A stretch of DNA of 33,028 nt from an uncultured Lachnospiraceae bacterium (GTDB lineage Bacteria > Bacillota > Clostridia > Lachnospirales > Lachnospiraceae), in contig CANPTH010000049.1 of assembly GCA_947576945.1 (NCBI GenBank), positions 1 through 33,028 on the forward strand, written 5' to 3'. How positions within the stretch are numbered: position 1 is the stretch's first letter; every line of letters starts with the position of its first letter. Below the pieces are notes generated by a model, which saw only the letters and a list, made by a program, of their open reading frames with translations, was not told the origin of the DNA and ran no database searches. A program made the position numbers and the translations under genes. This document shows positions 3,864-22,467 of this stretch, piece by piece.

Positions 3864-3870
3864 GAAAGTT

Positions 3871-4641
3871 ATGAAGAATATAGTATTGATTTTAAGAATG
3901 GCAGGAAATGATTTCAAGTCCCGCTATGCAGCGTCGGTTTTGGGGATTTTGTGGGCTTTTGTATTGCCGATCATAACAATCATCGTTTTCTGGGTTGTTT
4001 TTCAACTGGGATTCAAGTCGGTACCCATTCAGAATGTCCCTTATATATTGTGGTTTGCGGCGGCTTACGTTCCGTGGATTTATTTTAACGATATGCTTAG
4101 TTTTGGAGTGAATGCATTGTCCGACTACAGCTATCTGGTCAAGAAGGTCAGGTTCCAGGTGGGCTGCATACCATTGATCAGGATAGTGTCTTCGATGCTC
4201 GTACATCTGTTTTTTATTTTGTTTTTGTATTTTATGTTTTGGTGCTACGGTATGCCGTTGTCTTTTTTCTCAATGGTTCAGGCATTGTATTATAGTTGTG
4301 CCTTGACTTGCTTTACCAGCGGATTAGTATTTCTGTTGTCTTCGCTGGCGGTGTTTTTCAGGGATGTGGCGCAGCTGGTTATGGTGATTTTACAGATTGG
4401 TTTTTGGGTGACGCCTATTTTCTGGAATGCGCGGGAGATAGAGCAGAGTGTTTTGGATGTGGTCAGGTTAAACCCTCTTTTCTATATTATAGAAGGGTAT
4501 CGGGAAGGCTTTATCTATCATGTTCCATTTTGGGAGCATCCGGCGATGGCCTGTTATTTTTGGACAGTCACAATCGTGATTGGTACGGTGGGATATTTTA
4601 CGTTTAAACGCCTCAGGCCGCATTTTGCAGATGAATTATAA
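3871..4641 (+). CDS. wzm: ABC-2 type polysaccharide exporter, permease
   Basis: Membrane subunit of an ABC exporter of the Wzm/TagG type, moving an undecaprenyl-linked glycan across the membrane. About 256 residues with six predicted membrane segments, starting with SVLGILWAFVLPIITIIVFWVVF. The family features SRYAASVLGILWAF near the N terminus and QIGFWVTPIFW followed by LNPLFYIIEGYREGF near the C terminus are clear. ATG 3871 lies seven bases after the previous stop codon; a TTG at 3841 would overlap it and is unlikely. The ATPase partner follows directly. Confidence 0.92.
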   Translation: MKNIVLILRMAGNDFKSRYAASVLGILWAFVLPIITIIVFWVVFQLGFKSVPIQNVPYILWFAAAYVPWIYFNDMLSFGVNALSDYSYLVKKVRFQVGCIPLIRIVSSMLVHLFFILFLYFMFWCYGMPLSFFSMVQALYYSCALTCFTSGLVFLLSSLAVFFRDVAQLVMVILQIGFWVTPIFWNAREIEQSVLDVVRLNPLFYIIEGYREGFIYHVPFWEHPAMACYFWTVTIVIGTVGYFTFKRLRPHFADEL

Positions 4642-4706
4642 CATTTCGTACAGGTTATAGGATACATTTGCCGGCAGGCCGGAAGAAGAGAATGAAGGAC
4701 GGTTAC

Positions 4707-5957
4707 ATGAAAGCAATCAGTGTAAAAGATTTAAAAAAGGTATATCCGCTATATAAAAGCAAAATGGGTAAGGTAAAAGAGGCGCTTTCTCTTTCAGGGA
4801 AAAGCTATCATGATGATTTTCATGCATTGCGGGGGATCAGCTTTGAAGTTGAAAAGGGAGAGTGTGTGGGGATCATCGGACTGAACGGTTCCGGGAAATC
4901 TACATTGCTCAAGATCCTTACAGAGGTGATCACCCAGACGGAGGGAGAGATTGAAATAAACGGCAAGGTTTCTGCTCTGCTGGAATTGGGCGCCGGTTTT
5001 AATCCGGAATACACGGGTATGCAGAATATCTACTTAAACACCATGCTGATGGGATATACGCGTAAGGAGACAGACGGCAAGATTGCGCAGATCATTGAAT
5101 TTGCCGATATTGGTGATTTCATTTACCAGCCGGTTAAAGTATATTCGTCCGGTATGTATGTAAGGCTGGCTTTCGCAATCGCTGTTACGGTGGAGCCGGA
5201 TATTTTGATCATTGATGAAGCGCTCAGTGTAGGAGATGTTTTCTTCCAGCAGAAGTGTTACCGGAAAATAAAGGAGTTTGCGGGAAGGTCTACGGTGCTT
5301 ATCGTATCCCATGATTTAAATGCCATTACGAAGTTCTGCCCGAGAATGATCGTGATGGATCAGGGACAGATCGTATACGACGGGGAATCCAAGGAAGCGG
5401 TCTCCTGCTATTTCGGCATTAAACAGGGCAGGTACAGGCAGGAACCGTCACAGAGCATAAGGGAAGTGGAAGTTGATTTCGAGAAGTATAAAGAACCTGA
5501 CAGGAACATATACAGCGGTCACATGGATGTGGTGATCAGCAGGTTTTTTTATGATGTAAACGGACAGGATTATGCGGAATACTGCACAGAAGGGGATAAC
5601 GTTCATATATGGATGCTTACGGAGGCCAGGCGGCCGGTGGAAGATGTCATAGTGGGGTACCAGGTAAGGGATAAGTATGGCAATGAGATCTTCGGGGAAA
5701 CTTCGCTTACATCGCACGTGGATTCTTTTCCGCTGGCGGCCGGAAAGAATCTGATTTCTTTTACGGTGGTGTGGCCGGAAGTAAGAGAAGGGGATTATTT
5801 TATCACATTAGGAATCGGTGAAGGCAGTGAAGTCCTGAATCAGGTGGAGCAGTGCTGGCTTAATAATGCGCTGCACCTGATCGGGACGACACGGGATAAG
5901 ACAATCTTCGGGATTTTTAACCATGAAATGGAAGAGTTTGAGATCAGAAAATTATGA
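4707..5957 (+). CDS. wzt: ABC exporter ATPase with C-terminal glycan-binding domain
   Basis: Powers export together with the preceding permease. Residues 1 to about 240 are the ATPase: Walker A GLNGSGKST, signature YSSGMYVRLAFAIAV, Walker B ILIIDEALSVGD, switch His in VSHDLNA. From about residue 265 to the end there is a Wzt_C-like beta-sandwich domain (TEGDNVHIWMLTEA, VIVGYQVRDKYGNEIFGETS, GDYFITLGIGEG). In ABC-dependent O-antigen systems such a domain binds the chemically capped end of the finished chain and licenses export. Its presence here predicts that this glycan also receives a terminal cap, and a methyltransferase gene follows. ATG 4707 follows AAGGA by about eight bases; ATG 4692 is possible. 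Confidence 0.92.
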   Translation: MKAISVKDLKKVYPLYKSKMGKVKEALSLSGKSYHDDFHALRGISFEVEKGECVGIIGLNGSGKSTLLKILTEVITQTEGEIEINGKVSALLELGAGFNPEYTGMQNIYLNTMLMGYTRKETDGKIAQIIEFADIGDFIYQPVKVYSSGMYVRLAFAIAVTVEPDILIIDEALSVGDVFFQQKCYRKIKEFAGRSTVLIVSHDLNAITKFCPRMIVMDQGQIVYDGESKEAVSCYFGIKQGRYRQEPSQSIREVEVDFEKYKEPDRNIYSGHMDVVISRFFYDVNGQDYAEYCTEGDNVHIWMLTEARRPVEDVIVGYQVRDKYGNEIFGETSLTSHVDSFPLAAGKNLISFTVVWPEVREGDYFITLGIGEGSEVLNQVEQCWLNNALHLIGTTRDKTIFGIFNHEMEEFEIRKL

Positions 5958-10400: not shown

Positions 10401-10550
10401 CTGCTTTTCCTGCTGCTCGACAAGGATACCTTCCGGGGGAAGATGGCCGATGAGCTGCGGGATAAACCGGCGCTGTACCGGCTGGGAAAGTGGCTTTGGA
10501 ATCTGGGGAAGCAGGTGCAGATAATGTGTTTTGGAAAATCAGTGAGATGA
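7422..10550 (+). CDS. Bifunctional GT2 glycosyltransferase and HAD-like protein
   Basis: A 1042-residue fusion. Residues about 9-240 are a GT2 domain: ISIIMPVYNTEAYFDRCIGSVLAQSY, IELIVVDDCS, the FIDSDDYVSSDYY acidic motif and a late EDIAFS. From about 345 a HAD domain with a complete motif set follows: FDIYDTL (Asp353, Asp356), VILISDMYLE, RTKHNGSLY and HIGDTWQND. From about 640 to 1000 there is a second domain (HFLARDGYLPMKAYE, IAFDMGYSGRIQNA) shared with the 2031-3863 protein and typical of COG5610. No membrane segment, so cytoplasmic. The GT2 part adds a sugar; the HAD part may remove or transfer a phosphate on the glycan or its donor, which is inference. ATG follows AGGAGATAA by about twelve bases. 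Confidence 0.88.
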   Translation: MNRSILNNEYKISIIMPVYNTEAYFDRCIGSVLAQSYRNIELIVVDDCSQGDIRERIQEYLAQDSRVRLISHEKNEGLLKARLTGAEAATGEYIAFIDSDDYVSSDYYHTLLDRAVSEKVDIVIGHTVHQDRDGYRFLYNLYEAGFCFDRLDGEAVRERFYAQEGQCYAWHTIWNKLYSKSLWDRCMPYYKRIRQHVIMTEDIAFSSVLFYFAESAAVTANDAYFYCANDNASTNTEEISMQKFEKNMQDIRTVFDFVESFLEEQQAQKQIKEHFLAFRKLYARIWNNIPAYRLSGADALRGRRIMREFCPDETSCATEDDGLFLSITSPWNGGLESIKESILRAQDAYISFDIYDTLVQRPFLEPTDLFELLDKDFEQLLSSNLKFRQIRTGAEEIARRRYGTYHPDWQDITLPEIYRVMCEAYHIPEKIADRLMEREKQLELEFGSIRNAGRELYEAALLSGKQVILISDMYLERETIVKLLERNGYCEYSKLYLSSEIRRTKHNGSLYRYVRKELGIGQDTHIYHIGDTWQNDYINARDNGFDPILLPKAREIFENRIQGAVTNDCASIGLKANGCIVDRRKQYGSVGIGCMYAAVCNKYFDNPYRSFHPESDFNADPYLIGFYALGMHLAGLNRWITEECRKRKAEKIHFLARDGYLPMKAYEILNAGRDDVPEADYLYASRKAVLPGMIRSETDYYGLPVEYRNHSPESLLKVLEFASSDMDEETKEKICKQNGIAYHKVFTQKEEYLKFIDVFLQHIYDGAVYTESYETASRYYAGIGEKDIAFDMGYSGRIQNAVSRLAGRGVDVLFVHSDNDLSDKMARTGRFKIVSYYDFIPCISGLLREHMLSDTGAGCIGFRCTAGSVEPVLQEEGRTVQDRLVLGMLQQGALDFVTCMRQLFGAYEEYIPFRVTESSMPFEGYLRNAKEIDTKIFAASYFEDFVYGASKQINIGQFIHEHYRNEPVPGSETVCTESFFEQKIRHKGKMRRALLFLLLDKDTFRGKMADELRDKPALYRLGKWLWNLGKQVQIMCFGKSVR

Positions 10551-10584: not shown

Positions 10585-12675
10585 ATGAAAGATAAGCTGA
10601 CAGCTATGATAAAAGAATCACTGTATGTTGCTTTCATCAAAAGAAACAGAAATATGATATTGATTTCTGCACTGCTCTCCGTATTGTTGGTGGCGGTCAC
10701 TTATCCGGGGATTATGTACTCGGATTCTTACAGACGTGCCGAACTGATTGACAGTCTTGAATTATGGTTTCATGCTTTTTGGTCAGGGCAGCGTGATCTG
10801 ACGACGGGATCTGTCTGGTGGACGCTGACACCCATCTACTTTCTGTGGTTGTCCGTGAAATTGACGGGAAGCATTGCGCTGTACACCTATTTTCAGAGCT
10901 TCTTTTTTCTAATGGTAATGTTTGTTTTCGGTAACCGGTTGATTTCCAACCGTAAGATACTGATGGCGTTTTATATATTGGCGACGCCGGTTTTTGCAGG
11001 ATACAGCATTTATCAGGAGGCAAGCGTTGTCTGTGCGGCCGCGGTCATGGCAATCCTGATGCTCATATGGAAATGGAATGAATTTCAGAGCAGGACAGAT
11101 AAGGTCATTACGCTTATTTTGTTGTTGTTTTTATCATTTCTCGCGTTCGGATATCGGGCAAATGCTTTTACCATTCTGCCGGTGATACTGGCTGCCGTTT
11201 TTATGAAACAAAGGAAAAAATCAGTGGGGGGGGGTATGATCACAGCGGTGATCTTTGCCGGGTTTTTGATGGTTTCTGCAATACCGAAGGCGCTCCATAT
11301 CAATACAATGTCCTCTTATATAGGTGGATTTATCTGGGAGATCATTTCCGTTATTCAGACGATGGAAGAGGAAGATCAACAGGAATATATGGGCTATTTG
11401 GATGATATTTTCGGGGAAGGAATTACCGCTGCTGCAGTCGAACAGAGTACCTATAAAGAATATCATTCGGATATAAACAGTATATGGTGGGGCAATCCTT
11501 TTGATATAAATGAGATTTCCCGCAAAGAAAATACCAGAGCAGTCTTAAAGAAATATGTCCTGCTGATAAAAGAGGAACCCGGCGTTTTCTTTAAAACAAA
11601 AGGAGCGTTTGCAGCGCGCTCTATGGGCATCAATATGCCGCTCAGGTTTGTTGCATATCCTCATAATGAGTGGGATTACATGCCGGAGTATGACTTCAAT
11701 GATTCGAGGGTAAGAGAAGATTTCGTAGAATATTTCAACTCCTATATGGAATTTATGTGCGTGTTCAGAAGGCCATGGATTATGTTCGCGGCGGCTTTTT
11801 TGCTGATTTTGATCCGGCGGGGTAAATATGCGCTGAACAGAAAAGAAGTGACATTGCAGGAAATCTCTTTCTTAACGGCGTTGTTCTACTACGGGGCATA
11901 CCTATTAGATACGCAGTCTTTTGAATTCAGGTATTTTTTCCCTTCATGGGTATTATTGTTTTTCGTTATCGTTTCATTGGTCATAGAAATATGTGACAGG
12001 ATAAACAGGAAGACTTTACCGGTTATCTTACTTGCCGCATGGACACTGATTACTTTAGGAGGCGGATATGCGGAGCTTACCGAACATGGAGACGACATTG
12101 TAGAAACCATCAAAAGCGAGGGGATTTTACTGGCGCAGGCGGATCGGCAGGCTGTTTACTATCTGGATGATAACTTATATTTCCTGGCAGCTCCCGGAGC
12201 AGACACGGAATTTACATATTTTCTTCATTACTATAAAGAAGATGGAACTATGACCGGGCATGATTTCAGGTTCAGGGACCGCCAGCTGTATACATCTGCT
12301 TTTCATGAGAAAGCAGCGGTCAGCGAAGTGCCGCTGCAGGGGTTCAGTTATATCGAATTTGGACAGTGTTACGGTGATATAAGGTTCTGGGAGCAGAAGA
12401 AAGGGATTTCGGAATTTGTTGCGGCGCCTCAATGGATAGACATTCTTGATTTTAGTGATGAAAACTGGACACACGGCTACTGCAACTGGGGCGGATGCCT
12501 CTTAGCTTCCAACGTCAGTTTGGAAAACACTGTGCTTGTGGGAAAGCGTTTGATTCTGCCGGACGGCAGGAGCACTGTGATCACTGATACGGAAGTGGTG
12601 GAGGGATACCAGAGGATTTACACACAAGACGATATATCGGCATATGGTGAAAGAAGCTATCAAATAGGCGAGTGA
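10585..12675 (+). CDS. Phase-variable multi-pass membrane protein, GT-C-like glycosyltransferase candidate (ON)
   Basis: A 696-residue protein with about ten predicted membrane segments and a soluble C-terminal part (from about residue 490). After the first membrane helix comes an external-loop motif PGIMYSDSYRRAELID; an acidic residue at this place is usual in GT-C enzymes that use polyprenyl-linked sugars outside the cell. The C-terminal part holds DFSDENWTHGY, a motif shared with two neighbours. Nine consecutive G (11226-11234) encode Gly215-217 in a loop between membrane helices; the gene is in frame. With eight G translation would stop at once (GTA TGA). Start ATG after GGAG. No family name can be given with confidence; the GT-C role is inference. 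Confidence 0.72.
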   Translation: MKDKLTAMIKESLYVAFIKRNRNMILISALLSVLLVAVTYPGIMYSDSYRRAELIDSLELWFHAFWSGQRDLTTGSVWWTLTPIYFLWLSVKLTGSIALYTYFQSFFFLMVMFVFGNRLISNRKILMAFYILATPVFAGYSIYQEASVVCAAAVMAILMLIWKWNEFQSRTDKVITLILLLFLSFLAFGYRANAFTILPVILAAVFMKQRKKSVGGGMITAVIFAGFLMVSAIPKALHINTMSSYIGGFIWEIISVIQTMEEEDQQEYMGYLDDIFGEGITAAAVEQSTYKEYHSDINSIWWGNPFDINEISRKENTRAVLKKYVLLIKEEPGVFFKTKGAFAARSMGINMPLRFVAYPHNEWDYMPEYDFNDSRVREDFVEYFNSYMEFMCVFRRPWIMFAAAFLLILIRRGKYALNRKEVTLQEISFLTALFYYGAYLLDTQSFEFRYFFPSWVLLFFVIVSLVIEICDRINRKTLPVILLAAWTLITLGGGYAELTEHGDDIVETIKSEGILLAQADRQAVYYLDDNLYFLAAPGADTEFTYFLHYYKEDGTMTGHDFRFRDRQLYTSAFHEKAAVSEVPLQGFSYIEFGQCYGDIRFWEQKKGISEFVAAPQWIDILDFSDENWTHGYCNWGGCLLASNVSLENTVLVGKRLILPDGRSTVITDTEVVEGYQRIYTQDDISAYGERSYQIGE
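11226..11234 (+). repeat. Poly-G tract A, 9 G, in frame
   Basis: Nine consecutive G in the coding strand at codons 214-217. The present length keeps the 696-residue frame open. Removing one G gives GTA TGA immediately, and adding one G shifts to a frame that closes about 55 codons later. It is a candidate slipped-strand switch. Confidence 0.85.
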
Positions 12676-12728
12676 GCGGCGGTGGCGGAAAATTCCTCAG
12701 CGTAAAACGCTTCGGGATGGAGGTAAAG

Positions 12729-14555
12729 ATGATGGATTTAATAAGGGGGCTGCAGTCGAGGGCGGCGATTATGCTGGCTGTTATCGCTATAGTCCTGGTA
12801 AGCGGTACGGCTGTGATTAAATTTAGAGAGGGAGAGATCAATTATTATAATTCGGATGCTGTATGGCACACGCTGCTGACGATTGAGGCCTATAATGAGA
12901 CGCCGATCTCCAGTCATCTGTTCCTGCCGATCGTTTCTCTTGGTGAGGAGGGGGATAAAGGAATTCCATGGGGTGCAACAGTTCCTGACAAAGACGGGAA
13001 TTATTATTATACATCGTTTTCCGCCGCAGGATTCTTTTTGCCGTGGCTTTTTATGAAAGTGTTTCATCTGGCTGTTTCGGAACGGAGTCTGTATATTTTT
13101 AATACGTTACTTTTTCTGGCTTCGTCAATCCTGTGGACAGAATTTATTTATATGATATATTTCAGACGTTTTAGAGACGGCTCTGCTTTTGTTTTAGCGC
13201 TGATCGGTCTGCTGACATATATTTTTTCGCCGGAAATGCTGCATGGTATGGGAATTGTTTACTGGCATCAATCGATTATGCAGGTCACGTTATTGGTTCA
13301 GGTAATTGCCTGGTATTGCATGAAAGAAACAGATTCTTCCGGAGGAAAGGCCGTGTTTTATCTGATGACGTTTCTGAATCCTTACATTGAATGGACCGGT
13401 TATGTTGCAAATGTTGGATTTGCGTTGGCGGAGTGTATTACAACATGGAAAACAAACAGGGAACAGGCATTAAAACGAGCGGTCTGCATTGGCGCTGTCA
13501 GCGCAGCATCTTTTGGCCTGTTTGTGCTGCATTATCTGACAAGAGTGGATGCAGATATCCTTTTTGAAGCATTAAGTGCGAGATTTATGGCCAGAAATGT
13601 ATTGACGCCGGTTGCAATGACGGATATATTCAGCGGCTATTTCAGTTCTTTTCTGTATCTCTGGGTATTGATTGCCATAACGGCAGGATGGAATATACTG
13701 AGAGACAAAAAGATCGAACTGCAGCCAACCGTGCTGCTGTTCATTTTATTGTTTCCGGTTGTGGAGAACATGATCATGAAAGAGCATGCGTACAGCTATA
13801 CGTATGACCGGATGAAACTTATCTTTGCGCTTTCTCTTCTGATCTGTGAATTATGCTGCGGTCTGCTGACGGCTTCCAATAAGAGAAAAATATTATATAT
13901 GAAATTATTGTCTGCCGTCGGAGCCGTCTGTGTACTGAATCTTTATTCCTATATAAGGAACCAGGACTATGTCTGGCAGACAGATTACAGAGAAGATAAT
14001 CGCACGCTGGCAGAATACATCAGGCAGAATTATGACGATTCGGTATTAGCGCTGTATAATCTGCCGGTCAGAGGATATGTAAATCTTCTGTACAACAGGG
14101 GCGTGTATGAGATGACGGATATGGAACAGGCGCGGTCGCTTGCAGGCAGTGCGGGAAAGCGTTGGGCTGTTATGCTGGAGAGCTTTGGGGGGGGGTGGAA
14201 TTTGTATGATCTGAGAGCGGCAAATGTGTGTGAACTGGATTCCGGGATGGTCACACGGTTGGAGGTAACAGAAGGGACATTGCAGATTTCTCAGTTATCA
14301 GCAGATACAGAGAACTGGCAGCTGGCAGATTTTACAGATGAAAACTGGAATAAAGGGTACGCAAGAACAGAGAATACATTGCTGTTCCACAGGCAGGATG
14401 ATTTACTCCGCCAATTAGCCGGAAAGACTAAGGTAATATGCGGCAATGAGATCTATTATATACAAAACATGGATTATGACGATCTGTGGATCAGAATAAC
14501 CGTGGACAAGGAAGCGCACGGATGTATGTATCCGGCATATATCCGGCTGGAGTAA
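12729..14555 (+). CDS. Phase-variable multi-pass membrane protein, GT-C-like glycosyltransferase candidate (ON)
   Basis: About 608 residues. After one membrane helix comes YYNSDAVWHTLLTIEAYNETPISSHLFLP and then DGNYYYTSFSAAGFFLPWLF, a layout typical of PMT/ArnT-like GT-C enzymes (acidic residue in the first external loop, then a Y-TSF-GF-LPW segment). About ten further helices follow, then a soluble tail with DFTDENWNKGY near residue 537. Nine G at 14187-14195 encode Gly487-489 in the tail. Any change of tract length by one brings a stop within nine codons. Start ATG 12729 (or 12732) follows GGAGGT; a GTG at 12672 overlapping the previous stop is unlikely. Substrate unknown. Confidence 0.72.
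   Translation: MMDLIRGLQSRAAIMLAVIAIVLVSGTAVIKFREGEINYYNSDAVWHTLLTIEAYNETPISSHLFLPIVSLGEEGDKGIPWGATVPDKDGNYYYTSFSAAGFFLPWLFMKVFHLAVSERSLYIFNTLLFLASSILWTEFIYMIYFRRFRDGSAFVLALIGLLTYIFSPEMLHGMGIVYWHQSIMQVTLLVQVIAWYCMKETDSSGGKAVFYLMTFLNPYIEWTGYVANVGFALAECITTWKTNREQALKRAVCIGAVSAASFGLFVLHYLTRVDADILFEALSARFMARNVLTPVAMTDIFSGYFSSFLYLWVLIAITAGWNILRDKKIELQPTVLLFILLFPVVENMIMKEHAYSYTYDRMKLIFALSLLICELCCGLLTASNKRKILYMKLLSAVGAVCVLNLYSYIRNQDYVWQTDYREDNRTLAEYIRQNYDDSVLALYNLPVRGYVNLLYNRGVYEMTDMEQARSLAGSAGKRWAVMLESFGGGWNLYDLRAANVCELDSGMVTRLEVTEGTLQISQLSADTENWQLADFTDENWNKGYARTENTLLFHRQDDLLRQLAGKTKVICGNEIYYIQNMDYDDLWIRITVDKEAHGCMYPAYIRLE
14187..14195 (+). repeat. Poly-G tract B, 9 G, in frame
   Basis: Nine G encode three Gly codons followed by TGG. 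With eight G the reading continues for a few codons to a TGA, and with ten G it reaches TGA after GTG GAA TTT GTA. Both alternative frames therefore close almost at once and would remove the last 120 residues. Confidence 0.85.
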
Positions 14556-14602
14556 ATAACCGGAAAAGATTCTGGCAATGCAGAAGTGAGAGGAATGACA
14601 GG

Positions 14603-15736
14603 ATGAATACAAAATATGACAAGATCATCATCGGAGCAGGATTATACGGTCTATATTCAGCGCTGTTCTGCGGTGAGAAAGGACAGAAAGTTCTGGTTCT
14701 GGAATGCGACCCGGTTCCATTCGGACGGGCGACCTATATCAATCAGGCCAGAGTACACCAGGGATATCACTATCCGCGGTCGATTTCTACAGCGATGAAA
14801 TCAGCCGGTTATTTTGCAAGATTTAACAGGGATTTTGATTTCTGTATTAACAGGGAATTTCAGAAAGTCTATGCAACGTCCTCGGAATATTCCTGGTCTG
14901 ACGGGGAACAGTTTAAGAATTTCTGCAGGGCCGCAGAGATTCCGTGCGAAGAAATGCATGTGGGGCAGTTCTTTAAAGCGGGTATGTGTGACGGAGCATT
15001 TATGACAAGAGAATATACTTATGATGCAATGATCCTGAGAGATTACTATCTGGAAAAGATAAAGCCGCTGAAGAATGTGACAGTTAAATATAATGTCAGG
15101 ATCCGTACAATCGAGAAAGGGGAGGATGCTTATTATATATATGATACAGAAGGAGCCGGGTACGCAACAGGTTTTCTTCTGAATGCGACATATGCCGGTA
15201 CGAATCAGATTCTTGATATGATCGGATACGAGAAATTCAAGATCAAGTACGAGCTGTGCGAGATTATTCTTTGTGATGTGAATGATGTGCTGAAACAATA
15301 TGGTTTTACGGTGATGGACGGCCCGTTCTTTTCCATTATGCCTTTTGGCAAAACAGGGTTACATTCTTTAACATCCGTGACATTTACACCGCATACGACA
15401 AGCTATGATGCTGTTCCGACATTTGCATGCCAGACGAAAGCGGTGTCGGCATACTGTTCGCCCGGGCATTTGGGCAACTGTAATGACTGTATGACAAAAC
15501 CGATATCTGCCTTTCCGTATATGGCGAACCTTGCGCGTAAATATCTGAAGGATGAATACGAATTTAGTTACAGGAAATCGCTGTTTTCCATGAAACCGAT
15601 CCTGATGAGTTCGGAAATTGATGATTCCAGGCCGACAGTAGTACGTAAGTGTTCCCAGAATCCGACATGCGTCAGCGTGCTGTCGGGCAAAATAAATACA
15701 GTATACGATTTAGATGAGGTGTTGAGCGATGGCTGA
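14603..15736 (+). CDS. FAD-dependent oxidoreductase (DAO/UGM-like fold)
   Basis: About 377 residues. The N terminus is a Rossmann dinucleotide site, KIIIGAGLYGLYSALFCGEKGQKVLVLE, with the GxGxxG glycines and the Glu that binds the ribose. The motif YINQARVHQGYHYPRS follows, common in FAD oxidoreductases of glycan clusters and reminiscent of UDP-galactopyranose mutase. The reaction cannot be assigned: oxidation of a nucleotide sugar or a mutase-like rearrangement are both possible. ATG 14603 follows AGAGGAA by about eight bases; longer in-frame starts run back into the preceding gene. Its end overlaps the next gene by eight bases, showing translational coupling. It has no G tract, unlike its membrane neighbours. 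Confidence 0.85.
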   Translation: MNTKYDKIIIGAGLYGLYSALFCGEKGQKVLVLECDPVPFGRATYINQARVHQGYHYPRSISTAMKSAGYFARFNRDFDFCINREFQKVYATSSEYSWSDGEQFKNFCRAAEIPCEEMHVGQFFKAGMCDGAFMTREYTYDAMILRDYYLEKIKPLKNVTVKYNVRIRTIEKGEDAYYIYDTEGAGYATGFLLNATYAGTNQILDMIGYEKFKIKYELCEIILCDVNDVLKQYGFTVMDGPFFSIMPFGKTGLHSLTSVTFTPHTTSYDAVPTFACQTKAVSAYCSPGHLGNCNDCMTKPISAFPYMANLARKYLKDEYEFSYRKSLFSMKPILMSSEIDDSRPTVVRKCSQNPTCVSVLSGKINTVYDLDEVLSDG

Positions 15737-16667
15737 TAAAGAAAAGAATTTTATATCTGCGGTTATTTATGTACATAATGCGGAAGAACAAATAGAAACG
15801 TTCCTGAGAACAGTGGCGGAGACTCTGGAAGACCATTTTGAACATGCGGAGATCATATGTGTCAATGATCATTCAACTGATCGCAGCATTGAGCGGATCA
15901 AAGAATTCAGCAGGGAAGAAGCGGCATTCAGCATAACGGTTCTGAATATGAGTTATTTCCATGGCTTGGAAATGGCCATGAATGCGGGCGTTGACCTGGC
16001 AATCGGTGATTTTGTCTTTGAGTTTGATGTGCCGGTGTCTGATTTTGCGCAGGAAGAGATTATGAAAGTATATTACAGATCACTGGAAGGGTATGATATC
16101 GTCAGTGCATCTCCGGACAGAAGTGAGAGGATTTCTTCGCGGCTGTTTTACAGGACATTTCATTATTTTACGGACCTGCCTTATAAAATGGAGACGGAAA
16201 GCTTCCGGATTCTGAGCCGCAGGGTGATCAACAGGATCAGCTCCATGAACAAGACAATACCTTATAGAAAAGCGGTTTATGCGGGGAGTGGATTGAAGAC
16301 AGACCATATGAAATACCATGCAGACAGTTCCGTTAAGAATCACACAGATCGGAAAGAAAAGGGCTATCGGAGCAGGCTTGCGGTGGATTCTCTGATCCTG
16401 TTTACGGAGATGGGATACAGATTGTCTGTGATGATGGCGGCGCTGATGATGGCGATAACCGTTTTGATGGTGGTATATTCTGTTGTTATTTATATGACTG
16501 CAAGCCCTGTGGCCGGTTGGACGACGACAATCCTGTTTTTGTCAGTAGCATTTTTGGGTCTGTTTGGTGTATTGTCAGTGATTATTAAGTATTTGCAGCT
16601 GCTTGTGGATCTTGTTTTCAGAAGAAAGCACTACAGTTTTGAAAGTGTTGAGAAGCTTACGAAATAA
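15729..16667 (+). CDS. GtrB/DPM1-like GT2 glycosyltransferase with two C-terminal membrane helices
   Basis: 312 residues. A GT2 domain (ISAVIYVHNAEEQIETFL, AEIICVNDHSTDRSIERI, NAGVDLAIGDFVFEFD) is followed by two membrane helices (about 230-255 and 263-295). This layout is that of polyprenyl-phosphate glycosyl synthases such as GtrB and DPM1, which charge the lipid carrier with a sugar for use outside the cell. The usual DADLQD acidic motif is altered to FEFDVPVSDF, so activity is not certain. If active it would feed the GT-C-like proteins around it. Start ATG after GAGGTG, overlapping the FAD oxidoreductase gene by eight bases. Confidence 0.85.
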   Translation: MADKEKNFISAVIYVHNAEEQIETFLRTVAETLEDHFEHAEIICVNDHSTDRSIERIKEFSREEAAFSITVLNMSYFHGLEMAMNAGVDLAIGDFVFEFDVPVSDFAQEEIMKVYYRSLEGYDIVSASPDRSERISSRLFYRTFHYFTDLPYKMETESFRILSRRVINRISSMNKTIPYRKAVYAGSGLKTDHMKYHADSSVKNHTDRKEKGYRSRLAVDSLILFTEMGYRLSVMMAALMMAITVLMVVYSVVIYMTASPVAGWTTTILFLSVAFLGLFGVLSVIIKYLQLLVDLVFRRKHYSFESVEKLTK

Positions 16668-16748
16668 GGGCGGGAAACAGAAAGGCATTAGTCGGAGACA
16701 GGGGACAGAACCGGATACTTATGCGATAAAAGTGAGGTATCGGAAGAA

Positions 16749-18269
16749 ATGAAAAGAGAGCTGATAAAAAGATATGTATTTGTTATGATTTTAATTTCTG
16801 TAATGACAGTAAATTACAGGAACAATCTGTTGGATGTGGGAAATACCTTGTTTTCATATTTTCAGGAAGACAGTGAAACTTTGGTAACGGGCATGATTAT
16901 AGCTGACAGACAGGGGATCGATACGTTGAAATATGGACTGTCCAGATATTGTGACAGTTCAGGAGAGCTTTTTTCGCTGGATAATCGGGGGGGGGGATTT
17001 CTCACGGACGATAATTGGTCCGGGGGATACTCAATATGGGAACCAAAGATATTACTGAGCAATAATATCTATACACAAACTTATGCGGTACCGGGGAATT
17101 ATGTCCGATTTGGCAGCAAAGAGAGCGTTCTTATATGTGACGCATGGGCGGACGATCCCTATTACGTCGTATTGCTGGATAAGGCTCAGCCGCTGGATCC
17201 GGATCAGTATGGTTCCCTGCAGGATATGGTATTGCTGGATCAAAACGGGGCTGCCTGCCCGGCAGGGGCAGTACTCAATTACTGCAGCCAGTATGGTCTG
17301 CAGGGTAAAGTATTCAGGCGGTGGGCAGGCTGTTTAAGCTCCGGGATAGAAGAAACAGTGAAGGTGCTTCATACTTTCTGTTCGGCGGTAACGGCATTTG
17401 TTTTTGTGCTGATCGTGCTGCTGATCCGGAAAAAATACGATGGATTAATGGGAGCCTGCTTTTATATTACTTTTTTACTGTCGCCGTGGATCGTGAATTT
17501 TGCCAGAAATTTGTATTGGGTTGAATTTACATGGTTTATTCCGATGCTGATCGGTTTGATCTGTTCGATCTATGTGGCAGACAGAAAGAAGCGTCTTTTA
17601 TGTTACTTTGCTGCTTTTATTGCGATAGCTGTTAAATGTCTGTGCGGTTATGAATATATTTCGGTGATCATGATGGGAATGTGTTCTTTTTTGCTCGCCG
17701 ATTTTATTATGTGCCGTTTTGTCGAACATGATTCGGTTAAGGCGAAACTGCTGTTCAGGACATTATTTATAATAGGATGCTGTGCCCTTATGGGATTTAT
17801 AGCCGCCGGATGCATACACGCATACTACAGAGGCGGGGGAGATGTCCTGCAGGGTATCGGGAATATCATCAGACAGGATGCTGTCAGGCGGATACAGGGG
17901 GTTGCCGATGAGACAGGCGGAGCCTCGGTAAATGCCCGGGTATGGACTGTATGCGGATTATATACCCGGTTTTCAACAGAGATTATCACCGGGCTTTCGG
18001 GCAATCTTTTTCCGCTGTTGTGTATAGCGCCGATCTGCATATTTGTCTGTGATCGTCGGAAGAAATGCATGAACCGGAACGATGTGATCCTGTATTTTGT
18101 TTTTATGGCGGCATCGGTTTCATGGTTTGTTCTGGCGAAAGGACATTCTTATGTCCATTTACATATGAATTATGTCCTTTGGTATTTTGGATATATCCAG
18201 ATATGTATTTATGTGATTCTAAAGAGGATTCGGTCCTATGTGAAATCACCTGAGAAGGATAACAGTTAA
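16749..18269 (+). CDS. Phase-variable membrane protein with extracytoplasmic N-terminal domain (ON)
   Basis: 506 residues. One N-terminal membrane helix (about 9-25) leads to an external domain of about 185 residues holding LTDDNWSGGYSIW, the motif also found at the C-terminal ends of the 10585 and 12729 proteins. Some seven or eight membrane helices follow from about residue 210, beginning ETVKVLHTFCSAVTAFVFVLIVLLI. A run of ten G (16987-16996) at codons 80-83 lies directly before the shared motif. The gene is in frame. Eleven G would give a stop nine codons later, nine G a stop after about twenty. I cannot name a family; a role in modifying the glycan outside the cell is inferred from context. 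Confidence 0.7.
   Translation: MKRELIKRYVFVMILISVMTVNYRNNLLDVGNTLFSYFQEDSETLVTGMIIADRQGIDTLKYGLSRYCDSSGELFSLDNRGGGFLTDDNWSGGYSIWEPKILLSNNIYTQTYAVPGNYVRFGSKESVLICDAWADDPYYVVLLDKAQPLDPDQYGSLQDMVLLDQNGAACPAGAVLNYCSQYGLQGKVFRRWAGCLSSGIEETVKVLHTFCSAVTAFVFVLIVLLIRKKYDGLMGACFYITFLLSPWIVNFARNLYWVEFTWFIPMLIGLICSIYVADRKKRLLCYFAAFIAIAVKCLCGYEYISVIMMGMCSFLLADFIMCRFVEHDSVKAKLLFRTLFIIGCCALMGFIAAGCIHAYYRGGGDVLQGIGNIIRQDAVRRIQGVADETGGASVNARVWTVCGLYTRFSTEIITGLSGNLFPLLCIAPICIFVCDRRKKCMNRNDVILYFVFMAASVSWFVLAKGHSYVHLHMNYVLWYFGYIQICIYVILKRIRSYVKSPEKDNS
16987..16996 (+). repeat. Poly-G tract C, 10 G, in frame
   Basis: Ten G encode the end of an Arg codon (CGG) and three Gly codons (GGG GGG GGA). The reading frame is open on both sides at this length. 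Because it lies near the start of the gene, a slip would leave a product of about 90-100 residues with only one membrane helix. Confidence 0.85.
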
Positions 18270-18296
18270 ATCTAAACAGCTGGAGGAGCCGGTTCT

Positions 18297-18917
18297 ATGA
18301 AAGAGCGGGAGTGTGGAATTGATATATTCAGGATCATGTGCTGTATTGGAGTCTTGGATTATCATATCATGGATGATGTTGTATTTAGTACAGGTGGAGA
18401 TCTGTGCCGATTTTTGTACTTTATGGGATCCTTCTGTGTTCCGGGATTTTTTCTCTTAGCAGGATATCTTGTGGGAGCAAGAGAGAATATAAGTATGTCG
18501 TATATTGAAAATAAAATGATTAGCATAATTCGAAAGTGCTTTGGGTGGGTAGTGTTCTGGATCAGCGTACATTATCTTCGGACAGGAGAAATGTATGAAT
18601 TGTGGGATCATTTTACTGCAGCGATCGAAGCCCGGGGTATATTGCCTGTCGCATGGTTTCTATTTTTGTACTGTCTGCTACTGCTGCTGGGATACCCGCT
18701 GTATCATTTCTATAAAAAATATCCCTATGTGTTTTCCGGCATGGTAGTCTTGTGGCTACTGGCATTGTCCTTCGGTTACGGATTGCATATAAGGGAGACA
18801 AGAGGGCAGCATTTATGGATACATCTTTATCTTGGATATTTTTGTGCCGGTATGGCACTGAATAGGTTAAAAGAAAAAATGTCGAGGGGGGGGGGGAAAA
18901 CTATTTTATTATATTAG
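18297..18917 (+). CDS. Acyltransferase 3 family O-acyltransferase, N-terminal part; phase-OFF at a poly-G tract
   Basis: 206 residues in the present frame. It begins GIDIFRIMCCIGVLDYHI, the R-to-H motif of OafA/WecH-type acyltransferases in which the His is catalytic, then FFLLAGYLVG and further membrane helices. The frame breaks at eleven G (18886-18896): translation ends six codons later at TAG. With nine or twelve G the frame joins the open frame downstream (to 19276), which supplies the missing helices and gives about 325 residues (nine G), the normal size for the family. ATG follows GGAGGAG. When ON the enzyme would transfer an acyl group, probably acetyl, to the surface glycan. The read-out is an OFF state or a homopolymer sequencing error. 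Confidence 0.85.
   Translation: MKERECGIDIFRIMCCIGVLDYHIMDDVVFSTGGDLCRFLYFMGSFCVPGFFLLAGYLVGARENISMSYIENKMISIIRKCFGWVVFWISVHYLRTGEMYELWDHFTAAIEARGILPVAWFLFLYCLLLLLGYPLYHFYKKYPYVFSGMVVLWLLALSFGYGLHIRETRGQHLWIHLYLGYFCAGMALNRLKEKMSRGGGKTILLY
18886..18896 (+). repeat. Poly-G tract D, 11 G, out of frame
   Basis: Eleven G at codon 197 of the acyltransferase. Frame arithmetic: upstream codons start at positions divisible by three, while the downstream open frame starts at positions with remainder two, so loss of two G or gain of one restores the gene. This is the longest of the five tracts. Confidence 0.88.
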
Positions 18918-19276
18918 CAGGTATAAATTTATGCAGCCTGTGCGTGTATGGCTATAAGGTTAGGATGGCGGAGGAATTTTTATTGCCGCATACTTATTAT
19001 GGCAGTTGGTTCTATATCACTTGGCTTGTGTCTCTGTTTTTGTTTGTCTCTATGATAGATTTTCAAAATGAGTGTTTGCGGAGAATCATTTCCGGCATGG
19101 CGTTAAATACTTTCGTCGTTTATTTAGGACATCTGCCGATCCTATTATATGTTACAGGAATATACCCATTGAGGAACACTGCCAAAGCAGTAGTATATAT
19201 TCTGATATTTTTTGTTGGTCTGCAATTAGCGGCAGAGGTATTCCGACGGTTTCCGGTGCTTAGAAAGCTAACGTGA
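18897..19276 (+). pseudogene. Acyltransferase, C-terminal part separated by the tract D frameshift
   Basis: Read with nine G, the sequence continues as YFIILAGINLCSLCVYGY, then the loop MAEEFLLPHTYYGSW and three more membrane helices (WLVSLFLFVSMIDF, ALNTFVVYLGHLPILLYV, VVYILIFFVGLQLAAEV). These are the last helices expected of an acyltransferase 3 protein. An ATG at 18944 opens this frame but has no good ribosome site and starts inside a membrane helix, so independent translation is unlikely. It is better seen as the second half of a switchable gene than as a dead remnant. Confidence 0.75.
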
Positions 19277-19320
19277 GAAGCCTTTGGATTTGAGACGAAA
19301 CAAATGAGGAGGTAAGCGCA

Positions 19321-20565
19321 ATGCTTAAGAATTTTTGGCGGGAAAGACAAATGATCATATTGGGCGCACTGATGCTGTTGGTAATCTGTGGGATGCATGC
19401 AGTACAGGCGGGGAATTATGTTGATTTTTTTCCTACAAACGGAACGTTCCAAAATTTTAATCCGGTGAGACGTCTGCTGTCAGGACAGATTCCTTATAAG
19501 GATTTTCAGGATTATTTGGGATTGGGGCATTTATATACAGGCACAATCTTTACAGCGCTGTGCGGAGGAGATTATCGGGCGAGCCTTATAGCATTTTCGT
19601 TTCTGACGATACTCAGTTTCACAATGCTTTTGATAGTGATCGGAAGTTCTGTGTATGTTAAAAGATCAGTAGTAATTGAAATGACCGGCATTATTATGAT
19701 CATGTTGTTTATGCGCCCTCTTTTGTTTGTAAATATGCTTGTCGGAACGGAGGAAATGGATGGTGCGCTGAGTGCAGCTCTTGGGCCGGGCAATTCAGCA
19801 AGATTTGTGCGGGGGCTCATATTGCCGATATCTTGTGCACTTATTGTATTGGTTTATAAACTCTATGAGTCAGACAGGATCATGAAGTTTGCAACAGGCC
19901 GGTGGAAGGAATATAGTATATTTAGTTTTTTGGGGTGCATAGCAGGTTTTGCCTTTCCGTGGAGTAATGATTATGGGATAAGCTGCTGGCTCTGTCTGCA
20001 TGTCATGCTGGCTTTGATTCTTATGGCAAAAACGGGGAGACCTGTGAAAATGCTTATTTCGGTCCTGTATACATTTCTTATATCACTCATCAGTATTTTT
20101 GTGTTCGTAGAAATATTTACAGCAGGCCATTTTAAAGAATGGTTCAGCTCGACATTTGGAATAGGAGGATGGCAGAGTTGGTATTACAATTCACCCAAAA
20201 GCTATTATTTATTTGATGTGGATTTTTCATTTATTATGCTCCTTCAGGGAATTGTATGCTTAATCTATTTGCTAAAGATCTGGAAAACTAAAGCGGTTAA
20301 AGATTCTGTTATAAGGTATGGGATACCGGCATTCGCCAATATGACAGGATTTTGTGCTGTTAATGAATATCGTATGTTAAGCGGCGGAGAATCAAGAGAG
20401 GTGGCTCTGACGGTGTTATTTGCCACTTTAATATTTGAATTTTGTCGATATGTCAATAATTGGAAAGCGGAAAAATTTGTACGAACTGCAGCGTTTGTAG
20501 TCAGCCTGGCATGGATTGTTTCTACGGCTAAAGAGGAAGTAATTTTTATAGGGGGGGGGGTATAA
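19321..20565 (+). CDS. Multi-pass membrane protein, GT-C-like, N-terminal part; phase-OFF at a poly-G tract
   Basis: 414 residues in the present frame with about ten membrane helices. After the first helix the loop NFNPVRRLLSGQIPYKDFQDYLGLGHLYTG resembles the first external loop of GT-C glycosyltransferases. The frame ends at ten G (20551-20560), read as Gly-Gly-Gly-Val-stop right after the last helix and a short charged stretch. With nine G it continues into the soluble domain encoded to 21577, giving 751 residues. ATG follows GAGGAGG by about eight bases. In the OFF state the membrane part would still be made without its extracytoplasmic domain. Family not recognised; role inferred from context. 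Confidence 0.75.
   Translation: MLKNFWRERQMIILGALMLLVICGMHAVQAGNYVDFFPTNGTFQNFNPVRRLLSGQIPYKDFQDYLGLGHLYTGTIFTALCGGDYRASLIAFSFLTILSFTMLLIVIGSSVYVKRSVVIEMTGIIMIMLFMRPLLFVNMLVGTEEMDGALSAALGPGNSARFVRGLILPISCALIVLVYKLYESDRIMKFATGRWKEYSIFSFLGCIAGFAFPWSNDYGISCWLCLHVMLALILMAKTGRPVKMLISVLYTFLISLISIFVFVEIFTAGHFKEWFSSTFGIGGWQSWYYNSPKSYYLFDVDFSFIMLLQGIVCLIYLLKIWKTKAVKDSVIRYGIPAFANMTGFCAVNEYRMLSGGESREVALTVLFATLIFEFCRYVNNWKAEKFVRTAAFVVSLAWIVSTAKEEVIFIGGGV
20551..20560 (+). repeat. Poly-G tract E, 10 G, out of frame
   Basis: Ten G at codon 411. At this length the reading is GTA TAA immediately after the tract. Nine (or twelve) G joins the downstream frame as Gly-Gly-Gly-Tyr-Asn-Arg-Glu; eight or eleven G stops within about ten codons. 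The tract sits at the junction of the membrane part and the soluble part. Confidence 0.88.
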
Positions 20566-21577
20566 CAGAGAAGGGGAATATGTAGCTGAACTGGGAGGTA
20601 ATTTGACCCATTATGGTAGCGATTTGTTAAGGACAAAGGGGTTCTTAAGCGGAGACAAATTTTTTGCAACCTATGCATCGGCACAAGAGGTGGTATCGGG
20701 CATCTTTCAGCCATCAGGAACAGATTATATCATCCATGCGTTAGGGGATGACCAGCGAGAAAAATATCTACAGTGTTTTAGAGAAGGTGATTTTCGGTAT
20801 GCCGCCACCGTGAAAGAGGAGGCCACGCTTTGGGAATATTGGATTCGGAGGGGCAATTGGTTCTTCTATAGAGAGTTATACAGGGAGTGGCATCCGGTGT
20901 ATGCGAATACTTATGAAATGTATTGGGAAAGAAATAAAGGTATAAATCATATAGCAACAGGAGCATGTTCTGTAGAGGTGCAGGAAATAGATAACGCGAC
21001 CAGGAAGATCATTGTGAGGGCAGACGCGCAGATAAATGGAATAGCGGATGTGTATATAGATTATGAAGTAAAAAAGAGTGATGGGAAAATGAGCAGGCTG
21101 TTATTTCAGAGTATGTTAAGTGTGGTAAATTCGGGAACCGTATTTTCGAGCAATCCTGGGTATGAAACAAATTATCTGCGGCCGGTTGGTGCGGAGTTTA
21201 TACCGGTTACGGTGGTAGACGGGTATGGAGAGGTTACGATAACTGCTTCGCCTGCGGCAAGCACTGAGCTGGTGTTAAATGAGGCAGCGTGTTCTGATAT
21301 TTATCAGGTTATTTTTGATTATGTTGAATGTAAGGGTATTTTCGACAGGGATTCCAACATCGTTTTCAAGGTTTCTAACATAGATAGGCATAAGAAGGCA
21401 TTGAACAGTGCAACCGGCATTGGCATACAGGGATATGAATATTCAGTGTTGGAGATCAGTTCGGATGAAGAGTTTATATATATTCTATGCGGCGGGAATG
21501 AGGCAGATTTTGCCGCAGGTTTGGATATATATAATTATAGCAATATTTTACATGTGGTGAAGGAGATGAAAGATTGA
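20561..21577 (+). pseudogene. Extracytoplasmic C-terminal domain of the 19321 membrane protein, separated by the tract E frameshift
   Basis: Read with nine G, this supplies about 338 residues continuing YNREGEYVAELGGNLTHYGS and lacking membrane helices. A tryptophan- and tyrosine-rich part (LWEYWIRRGNWFFYRELYRE) is followed by a beta-rich part (KIIVRADAQINGIADVYIDYEV). A TTG at 20603 lies three bases after GGGAGGT, too close for good initiation, so separate translation is doubtful but not excluded. The long intact open frame argues that the gene has not been dead for long. Function unknown. Confidence 0.72.
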
Positions 21578-21656
21578 AAATTAAAATTTTCAATCGCGAG
21601 ATTTGTGTCTGCGCGTTGCTTGCCACAAACTCGATAGGCGCAAAAAGCAACGCAGA
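21573..21656 (+). repeat. Palindrome plus compact pseudoknot-forming element at a gene junction
   Basis: First a near-perfect palindrome: ATTGAAAATT (21573-21582), AA, AATTTTCAAT (21585-21594). Then two interleaved pairings: CGAGATTTGTG (21597-21607) with CACAAACTCG (21624-21633), one base bulged; and TCTGCGCGTTGCTT (21608-21621) with AAGCAACGCAGA (21645-21656), two bases bulged. Interleaved order makes an H-type pseudoknot possible. It contains the stop codon of the preceding gene and a TTG start of the next. It may be an inserted repeat element or an RNA control element. Confidence 0.6.
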
Positions 21657-22467
21657 AATGGAGGAAATGATGGAAATCTATGACCGGCAAGAGGGTGTAC
21701 CCAGGTTTGCGTGTACCGAATTCAGGAATAAGGAGAAAGATTATGTTGTTCTGATACCGATCATTAATGAAGGGGACAGAATTATCAAAGAATTGAAAAG
21801 AGCAGATAAGTATCAGGTCGCAGAGAGCGCTGATCTGGTTATCTGTGACGGCGGATCATCTGACGGATGTACGGAGGAACAGAGGCTTCGGCGGTTAGGC
21901 GTCAATACATTGCTGGTAAAGCAGGATGCAGGTAAACAGGGCGCGCAGCTCAGAATGGGCATATGGTGGGCGCTGAAGAGAGGATATAAGGGCATAATCA
22001 CAATTGACGGGAATAATAAGGACAGCATTGAGGATGTGCCAAAGTTCCTTGAGAAATTACAGGAGGGATATGATCTGGTGCAGGGATCCCGTTTTATCCG
22101 GGGAGGCAGGGCAGTCAATACGCCGCTGATCAGGCTGATCTCACTGCGATTGATACATGCCCCTGTTATTTCTCTGACGGCGCGGCACAGGTTTACGGAT
22201 ACGACTAACGCATACAGGGCATATTCGGCAGAATATCTTCGGCATCCTGAAGTGCAGCCGCTTAGAGATATCTTTATGTCGTATGAACTGCTGGCGTATC
22301 TGTCGGTCAGGGCAACACAGCTTGGAATGCGGGCCTGTGAGATTCCTGTGACCAGGGCATATCCAGGGAATGGACGCACGCCGACTAAGATCAGTTTTGT
22401 CAAAGGGAATGTTGAGCTGATGAGCATTTTATTGAAAAATCTCTTTGGGGTTTATGAACCGGATTAG
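21574..22467 (+). CDS. GT2 family glycosyltransferase, DPM1-like without membrane helices
   Basis: Up to 297 residues. The GT2 core begins YVVLIPIINEGDRIIKELKRA, then ADLVICDGGSSDGCTEE, QDAGKQGAQLRMGIWWALKRGYKGIITIDGNNKDSIEDVPKFL (acidic motif DGNNKD) and GYDLVQGSRFIRGG, close to dolichyl/polyprenyl-phosphate sugar synthases. No membrane helices. The start is unclear: TTG 21574 has AAGGAG eight bases upstream and overlaps the previous stop, but the first 28 residues are encoded by the palindrome/pseudoknot element. ATG 21670, five bases after GGAGG, fits the family length better. It is the last gene of the polysaccharide operon and may charge a lipid carrier or add a sugar. Confidence 0.85.
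   Translation: MKIKIFNREICVCALLATNSIGAKSNAEMEEMMEIYDRQEGVPRFACTEFRNKEKDYVVLIPIINEGDRIIKELKRADKYQVAESADLVICDGGSSDGCTEEQRLRRLGVNTLLVKQDAGKQGAQLRMGIWWALKRGYKGIITIDGNNKDSIEDVPKFLEKLQEGYDLVQGSRFIRGGRAVNTPLIRLISLRLIHAPVISLTARHRFTDTTNAYRAYSAEYLRHPEVQPLRDIFMSYELLAYLSVRATQLGMRACEIPVTRAYPGNGRTPTKISFVKGNVELMSILLKNLFGVYEPD

Follow-up and report, generated by a model that had tools for sequence, protein, structure and literature searches.

The stretch analysed here, called the window throughout, is the 33,028-nucleotide contig CANPTH010000049.1 (contig C49) of a 4.37-Mb draft genome in 133 contigs from an uncultured Lachnospiraceae bacterium (GCA_947576945.1). It contains a predicted surface-polysaccharide gene cluster in which five runs of nine to eleven guanines (G9 to G11, the number giving the exact run length) lie within genes for membrane proteins. 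We regard these runs as very probably contingency tracts, through which slipped-strand phase variation would act on enzymes that decorate the surface polysaccharide. This was the core of the original prediction. It is supported by a spike in the genome-wide run-length spectrum, by tracts in promoter spacers, by a full-length allele and by the recurrence of tracts in relatives; four of its points had to be corrected.

Recounting in the letters of the window returned the predicted positions and lengths of 9, 9, 10, 11 and 10 (Table 1). No G run beyond the five tracts is longer than five: exact counts are zero for each of G6, G7 and G8 and 2, 2 and 1 for G9, G10 and G11, and C runs stay below five throughout the 33,028 bases. 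All five have their G on the coding strand. As predicted, three are in frame, within single open reading frames (ORFs) of 696, 627 and 506 amino acids (aa), and two are not. Tract 4 breaks the acyltransferase gene into a 206-aa ORF and a downstream piece, and tract 5 closes a 414-aa ORF that is followed by a 324-aa ORF. Judged from the frames flanking each tract, gain or loss of one or two G would switch the full-length product.

The five tract genes do encode multi-pass membrane proteins, with seven to nine hydrophobic segments each (three plus four for the two acyltransferase pieces; hydrophobicity count). Tract-free membrane proteins are also present in the window, namely the membrane protein of the ATP-binding cassette (ABC) exporter with four segments and one glycosyltransferase family 2 (GT2) protein with two. 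The claim that the other genes have no tract is correct within the window but fails as a rule, since flavin adenine dinucleotide (FAD) oxidoreductase and GT2 genes carry tracts in the operons of relatives. A restriction of tracts to membrane genes was likewise discarded: GT2, FkbM methyltransferase and DegT genes elsewhere in the genome have them. The 32 surface states envisaged earlier presuppose independent, binary and complete switches and need qualification: tracts 2 and 5 are located after the last membrane segment (g2 model; hydrophobicity count) and slippage there would spare the membrane core.

Under a first-order Markov model of the window, 0.46 runs of at least nine G would be expected against five seen (Poisson P(>=5) about 1e-4); the same model expects 11.5 G6 runs against none seen and is therefore crude. 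Synonymous-codon shuffles of 22 ORFs (3000 shuffles; this set contains only the three in-frame tracts of the five) gave a mean of 0.26 long runs, with 0.07% of shuffles reaching three, and expected 6.1 runs of G6-G8, of which none was seen. In the whole genome the exact counts of G7 to G12 are 7, 3, 31, 5, 2 and 1. Because the counts decay up to G8 and then rise tenfold at G9, the long tracts look like a separate class. Long tracts thus exceed chance in the window by Markov model and shuffles, and in the genome by the shape of the spectrum. The five tracts also form a cluster, spanning 9.3 kb: random placement of the 39 genomic runs of at least nine put five within some 10.2 kb in 0.01% of 20,000 trials, and never produced two five-tract clusters at once. 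The poly-G spectrum of Campylobacter, as given in the available part of the source, peaks at 9 (53%) and 10 (26%) (PMC6321876). A 2010 survey of 99 genomes reports, in its accessible sections, that poly-G longer than two bases is generally rarer than expected, nine genomes having an excess at 7-8 bases (PMC2831843).

Counting G runs of at least eight across the genome, a check proposed with the original prediction, revealed three G8 runs and the 39 runs of at least nine, 31 of them exactly nine, which rules out that the phenomenon is confined to the five operon genes. By our own reading of the ORFs, as opposed to a gene caller, 27 of the 39 tracts are coding and 12 non-coding. The G lies on the coding strand in 25 of the 27, and 10 of 24 unambiguous coding tracts are out of frame, three tracts at gene ends (L001, L025, L034) being set aside. 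A second five-tract cluster lies within 10.2 kb of contig C11, where two GT2 genes and one for an FkbM methyltransferase are also found; two of its five tracts break the frame. Around their G9 tract the GT2 genes at 10471 and 11622 have identical sequence, pointing to duplication of a gene that already carried the tract. The C11 gene at 16127 is out of frame and has, by eye, an acyltransferase-like start.

Other glycan-type tract genes encode a GT2/methyltransferase, a GT-D-like protein (just under cut-off) and a DegT aminotransferase; those for an F420-type/pyruvyl transferase and a GDPD protein are both out of frame. Further tracts are found in genes for solute-binding and DUF3502 proteins, a leucine-rich-repeat surface protein, HAD and GNAT enzymes, and regulators (histidine kinases, response regulators, AraC and helix-turn-helix regulators). 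Tracts lie in histidine-kinase, AraC-type or response-regulator genes at L001, L018, L025, L034, L037 and L040, at the gene end in L001, L025 and L034, and switching of regulators or of regulator tails is possible. A flagellin gene has a G9 tract (L039:1945-1953) four bases before its ATG, where a ribosome-binding site is expected.

Plain glycine-codon use, with runs of GGG codons in linkers and no role in switching, is a very improbable source of the tracts. GGG ranks third among the glycine codons, with 172 of 716 occurrences in 22 ORFs, G8 is nearly absent, and the non-coding runs and frame-breaking coding tracts counted above do not fit; glycine runs are mostly missing at these places in homologues that lack a tract. 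Genome G264 speaks for codon use; it is the only one of 299 family genomes with more G9 runs than the present genome. It has 105 G9 and 88 G8 runs in an incomplete 1.6-Mb sequence, and 15 of 15 sampled runs lie within open frames of more than 200 codons. These runs come perhaps from odd glycine-codon use, which may make such runs, and G264 was set aside as a parallel because the sampled runs sit in long open frames.

Five of the 12 non-coding tracts fill the spacer between TTGACA-like and TATAAT-like boxes (sigma-70-like), with 10-11 of 12 box matches, spacers of 16-19 and shuffle P <= 0.027. None of the 27 coding tracts was found as such a spacer at shuffle P <= 0.05. For the other seven non-coding tracts the promoter reading was dropped or left uncounted; the uncounted ones include the weaker candidates L007 (9 of 12, shuffle P 0.02), which overlaps a 356-aa ORF on the other strand although classed as non-coding, and L033 (9 of 12, P 0.07). 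Genes downstream of the spacer tracts encode a solute-binding protein, a 556-aa protein with a hydrophobic start and an ABC permease. Two very large ORFs with signal-like starts, L128:1072-12009 (3646 aa) and L129:3-7007 (at least 2335 aa), also have a promoter-spacer G9 ahead. G homopolymers of the length regarded as hypermutable (about 8-9 or more) occur in ORFs, as the window runs of 9-11, and in five promoter spacers elsewhere.

A second allele of the acyltransferase was found in the 325-aa protein P0001, identical to the two window pieces over its first 196 and its last 126 residues. Its joining residues RGG fit G9 at this one locus, as read from the protein, versus G11 in the window. The longest contig given for P0001 has 19,980 bases and is therefore another than the window's. 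P0043 (607 aa) is identical to g2 and present on two contigs, one of which is as long as the window. For g5, no variant allele of the same strain was found in the protein database; the best match is an 88% relative, which also has RGGG there. Two acyltransferase relatives, P0003 (204 aa) and P0037 (201 aa), end near the same place, one with PPP and the other with RGG near its end. Tracts are perhaps present at these ends too, contig ends being another possibility.

Of the 77 genus genomes, 17 have the FAD gene at E <= 1e-80, and in all of these the homologous operon was compared over stretches of up to 20 kb (the window for this genome). A G or C run of at least eight was found in the operon stretch of six (this genome, G074, G005, G117, G042 and G071). 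Tract positions vary among these relatives, and lengths differ between species, with runs up to G15. At the g2 site, where the alignment holds 46 of the best 120 of 276 matches, GGG stands at the same position here, in G074 (G15, P0054) and in P0044 (75% identical, protein only), and P0044 and P0054 both terminate within about 20 residues after it. The g1 tract lies at residue 214 here. In G074 it is found near residue 600 (G11, out of frame), and in G005 it is in frame and close to the start; the G005 homologue has no GGG at the place of tract 1. For g5 (26 of the best 120 of 798 matches aligned) the tract lies at residue 80 here and, by its residues, in P0163, and near residue 370 in G074 (G13). 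The FAD gene carries an out-of-frame G9 in G117 and tracts at two loci of G042, one of these loci being broken in more than one place. In G005 a GT2 gene with G8 and a neighbouring gene with G9 are both out of frame. Homologues without a tract mostly lack a glycine run at the tract places. Two contigs of G057, C35 and C66 (L125, L126), break off in the FAD gene, between residues 184 and 188, which is where the tract of G117 lies; our guess is that a variable tract caused the breaks.

These comparisons bear on two further explanations. Under assembly or sequencing error the true tracts would be shorter or all in frame, and both broken genes would be intact in the organism. G tracts easily give rise to polymerase and sequencing errors according to the consulted part of one study (PMC9187656), the genome is a draft of 133 contigs, and the intact acyltransferase P0001 could be the correct sequence. 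Errors, however, shift a length by one or two and do not create long runs where G6-G8 are missing; they do not account for the genome-wide spike at nine or for tracts up to G15 in assemblies of other species, and placement in promoter spacers is no error signature. We consider this explanation unlikely, if somewhat less so than glycine-codon use. Slippage of RNA polymerase or the ribosome, in which a stable DNA length would give mixed in-frame and out-of-frame products in every cell, is about as improbable as the codon-use account. It would suit the presence of MutS, and transcriptional slippage on homopolymers is mentioned for poly-A tracts of Buchnera in the available part of the 2010 survey (PMC2831843), but it leaves unexplained the promoter-spacer tracts, the differing length implied by P0001, and the varying lengths and positions among relatives.

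Nine-G windows extend beyond this species. At least one is present in 22 of 24 genus relatives, some of which exceed this genome. In other families of the order 11 of 16 genomes have such a window, mostly few; with the many seen in G028, G032 and G035, the trait extends beyond the genus. Among named genomes with the FAD gene, a G9 match was found in 12 of 27 (27 of the 36 FAD-gene loci were taken for this count). G413 was set aside, since its 30 fetched loci have 60% guanine-cytosine content and its 107 G8 runs are likely background. A mutS gene scored above the cut-off in 74 of 77 genus genomes, and the genome's own copy has a full-length frame; loss of mismatch repair was accordingly rejected as the cause of the tracts.

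With slipped-strand switching as the preferred reading, the course of events would be as follows. Slipped-strand mispairing in replication would add or remove a single G and shift the frame in the five membrane enzymes, so that a clone would hold cells with differing surface sugars. Going by their families and one good model, two GT2 enzymes would load sugars onto polyprenyl phosphate; g2 with its GT-C fold, and probably also g1, g5 and g8/g9, would transfer sugars outside the membrane; and the acyltransferase would add acyl groups. The Wzm/Wzt exporter, methyltransferase and large GT2, all tract-free, would make and export the chain. As these chain and export genes carry no tract, variation would affect how the chain is decorated and leave the chain itself unchanged. 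In g2 and g8/g9, slippage would cost the outer domain, not the whole enzyme, and slippage in promoter spacers would tune transcription. Both the switching within a clone and the change of decoration only are inferred from sequence, and the tract genes are predicted extracytoplasmic transferases.

The genes of the operon follow the order GT2, 610-aa protein, Wzm/Wzt-type exporter, methyltransferase, large GT2, g1, g2, FAD oxidoreductase, GT2, g5, acyltransferase, g8/g9 and GT2. The joint presence of the exporter and GT2 genes in Pfam searches marks a surface-polysaccharide locus with ABC export. GT2 genes above the Pfam cut-off start at 971, 7422 and 15729, and the exporter genes contain no G run of six or more. 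The 610-aa protein has no family match, and Pfam and NCBIfam searches gave no family for g1, g2, g5 and g8/g9. The AlphaFold model of g2 has a predicted local distance difference test (pLDDT) score of 91, and all 22 of its PDB matches at E<=0.001 are GT-C enzymes or translocon maps containing oligosaccharyltransferase (OST). They include OST/PglB, ArnT, AftA, DPY19 and Pmt4, with template modelling scores (TM-scores) by query of 0.39-0.48, and g2 is likely a GT-C-fold enzyme by this model. For g5 (model pLDDT 85) the 21 best PDB matches are all GT-C, but weak (E >= 0.0028); a 52% relative, P0166, carries the name YfhO family. The GT2 at 15729..16667 scores 89.5 bits to NCBIfam NF047588, under the cut-off of 500. 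That at 21574..22467 scores 44.8 bits to NF058614 (cut-off 370) and 20.0 bits to Pfam GT2 (cut-off 23.3). Both are likely polyprenyl-phosphate sugar synthases, as judged from these scores. Both acyltransferase pieces match Pfam Acyl_transf_3, the second below cut-off, and g8 and g9 form a single open frame in five of six homologues checked.

A DENWxxGY module without a Pfam name is common to g1, g2 and g5 and likely lies outside the membrane. The g1 and g2 modules align with an hhalign E of 3e-7, the alignment being confined to this outer module. Tracts lie shortly ahead of the module in g2, in g5 and in the g1 of G074.

Table 1. Positions of tracts, genes and modules in the window, and of the second tract cluster
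Feature	Position	Strand	Remarks
Tract 1 (G9)	11226..11234	+	g1, residue 214; in frame
Tract 2 (G9)	14187..14195	+	g2, residues 506-508; in frame; past last membrane helix
Tract 3 (G10)	16987..16996	+	g5, residues 80-83; in frame; directly ahead of DENWxxGY module
Tract 4 (G11)	18886..18896	+	acyltransferase gene; out of frame
Tract 5 (G10)	20551..20560	+	between g8 membrane core and g9 outer domain; out of frame
Wzm/Wzt-type ABC exporter	3841..5957	+	membrane part 3841-4641 (Pfam ABC2_membrane)
Exporter ATPase	4668-5957	+	Pfam ABC_tran and Wzt_C domain
Methyltransferase	6028-7410	+	Pfam Methyltransf_24; no tract
Large GT2 protein	7422-10550	+	Pfam Glycos_transf_2; no tract
g1	10585..12675	+	696 aa; 9 hydrophobic segments; C-terminal DENWxxGY module; in frame
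g2	12672..14555	+	627 aa; GT-C-fold membrane glycosyltransferase-like; in frame
FAD-dependent oxidoreductase (DAO family)	14606..15736	+	Pfam DAO; conserved anchor gene; tract-free here
GT2, PgfS-like	15729..16667	+	Pfam Glycos_transf_2; two C-terminal hydrophobic segments; tract-free here
g5	16749..18269	+	membrane protein; 506 aa; GT-C-like; in frame
Membrane acyltransferase (Acyl_transf_3)	18297..19276	+	tract-split; 206 aa and downstream piece
g8/g9	19321..21577	+	membrane core (414-aa ORF) and outer domain (324-aa ORF)
GT2, PpgS-like	21574..22467	+	tract-free
DENWxxGY module of g1	12430..12642	+	residues 616-686; hhalign
DENWxxGY module of g2	14310..14522	+	residues 547-617; hhalign
DENWxxGY module of g5	17001..17186	+	residues 85-146; hhalign
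C11 cluster tracts (L031, G000:C11:1-20000)	5938, 10471, 11622, 15173, 16127		

Several points weigh against contingency tracts. Every tract length is a single assembled consensus, homopolymers being error-prone in sequencing, as the accessible part of the study cited above states (PMC9187656), and the G9 length of the P0001 allele was read from protein and not from DNA. The presence of MutS should reduce slippage of single bases. The window Markov model scaled to the genome expects about 60 runs of at least nine against 39 seen, so that the total shows no excess; the genome-level argument rests on the shape of the spectrum, and the model over-predicts G6-G8 as well. The operon does not require tracts: the fetched stretch has no G or C run of at least eight in 11 of the 17 genus genomes with the FAD gene, and none of the 36 named FAD-gene loci (one shared with G060) has a run of at least eight in its fetched stretch. 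Co-transcription of the operon is inferred from strand and spacing, and g1 and g8/g9 have no Pfam match.

A report of poly-G phase variation in Lachnospiraceae or other gut Clostridia was not found in the open-access literature (titles and abstract starts, subscription papers being mostly outside). Phase variation in gut Clostridia is known mainly from DNA inversions. Clostridioides difficile has invertible promoters, as the available part of a 2025 review describes (PMC11868660). In the accessible sections of a 2025 review of gut surface polysaccharides the words 'slipped' and 'homopolymer' were not found (PMC12413058). The mechanism itself is classical; the host and the scale are unexpected. 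We consider somewhat more probable than not the wider view that a gut Lachnospiraceae lineage independently evolved a poly-G switchboard of Campylobacter scale. Acting together, about forty tracts in frames and promoter spacers would make the decoration of surface glycans, flagellin, giant secreted proteins and sugar-sensing regulators vary at random, new tracts arising repeatedly at different operon sites in sister species, and a Gram-positive commensal would thereby hedge against phages, antibodies and diet. If this is true, strain-level metagenomics, which tends to ignore homopolymer indels, misses a large and measurable surface diversity. Selection on tract states in the gut by phage, immunoglobulin A or diet would become testable, as would the question why tracts settle at nine G in lineages as distant as Campylobacter and Lachnospiraceae.

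Among known systems, the tracts of Campylobacter are described, in the part of the source available, as lying for the greater part in ORFs, their G in the coding strand, and chiefly in genes that modify surface structures (PMC6321876). The tracts found here resemble that phasome, as far as this part of the source describes it, in the poly-G peak at nine, the mostly coding location and the strand. They differ in their distant, likely Gram-positive host with MutS and in lying on predicted GT-C and acyl transferases behind an ABC exporter, as well as on sugar-uptake and sensor-regulator genes. In Bifidobacterium breve UCC2003 the sortase-pilus genes bbr_0113 and bbr_1889 have intragenic G11/G10 tracts; length changes were demonstrated by maximum-depth sequencing and ON lengths were enriched in mice, according to the consulted sections (PMC9187656). 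The original prediction had stated that little is known of such switching in Gram-positive gut Clostridia. For gut Clostridia, titles and abstract starts in the open-access literature gave no report; for Gram-positive gut commensals the statement is qualified by the pili of B. breve, itself a Gram-positive gut commensal, in the part of the study available (PMC9187656). As described there, a G11/G10 tract splits a surface gene of a gut commensal into two ORFs, as is seen here; in contrast to the two pilus loci of B. breve, there are 39 tracts and five-tract glycan clusters, as assembled. In Neisseria meningitidis a poly-G within the porA promoter alters expression, as the accessible part of the source reports (PMC3639595). 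The spacer tracts found here would be predicted to act as promoter poly-G in a similar way. Unlike porA, the genes behind these promoters encode giant secreted-like proteins, a solute-binding protein, an ABC permease and a membrane-like protein. Polyprenyl-phosphate glycosylation sets combine a GtrB/CsbB-like GT2 with a YfhO/ArnT-like GT-C protein. The operon resembles these sets in having GT2 proteins that score to PgfS/PpgS models (below curated cut-offs), a GT-C-fold partner and a relative named YfhO, and differs from them in its several GT-C-like partners, three of them with a DENWxxGY module, which are interrupted by tracts.

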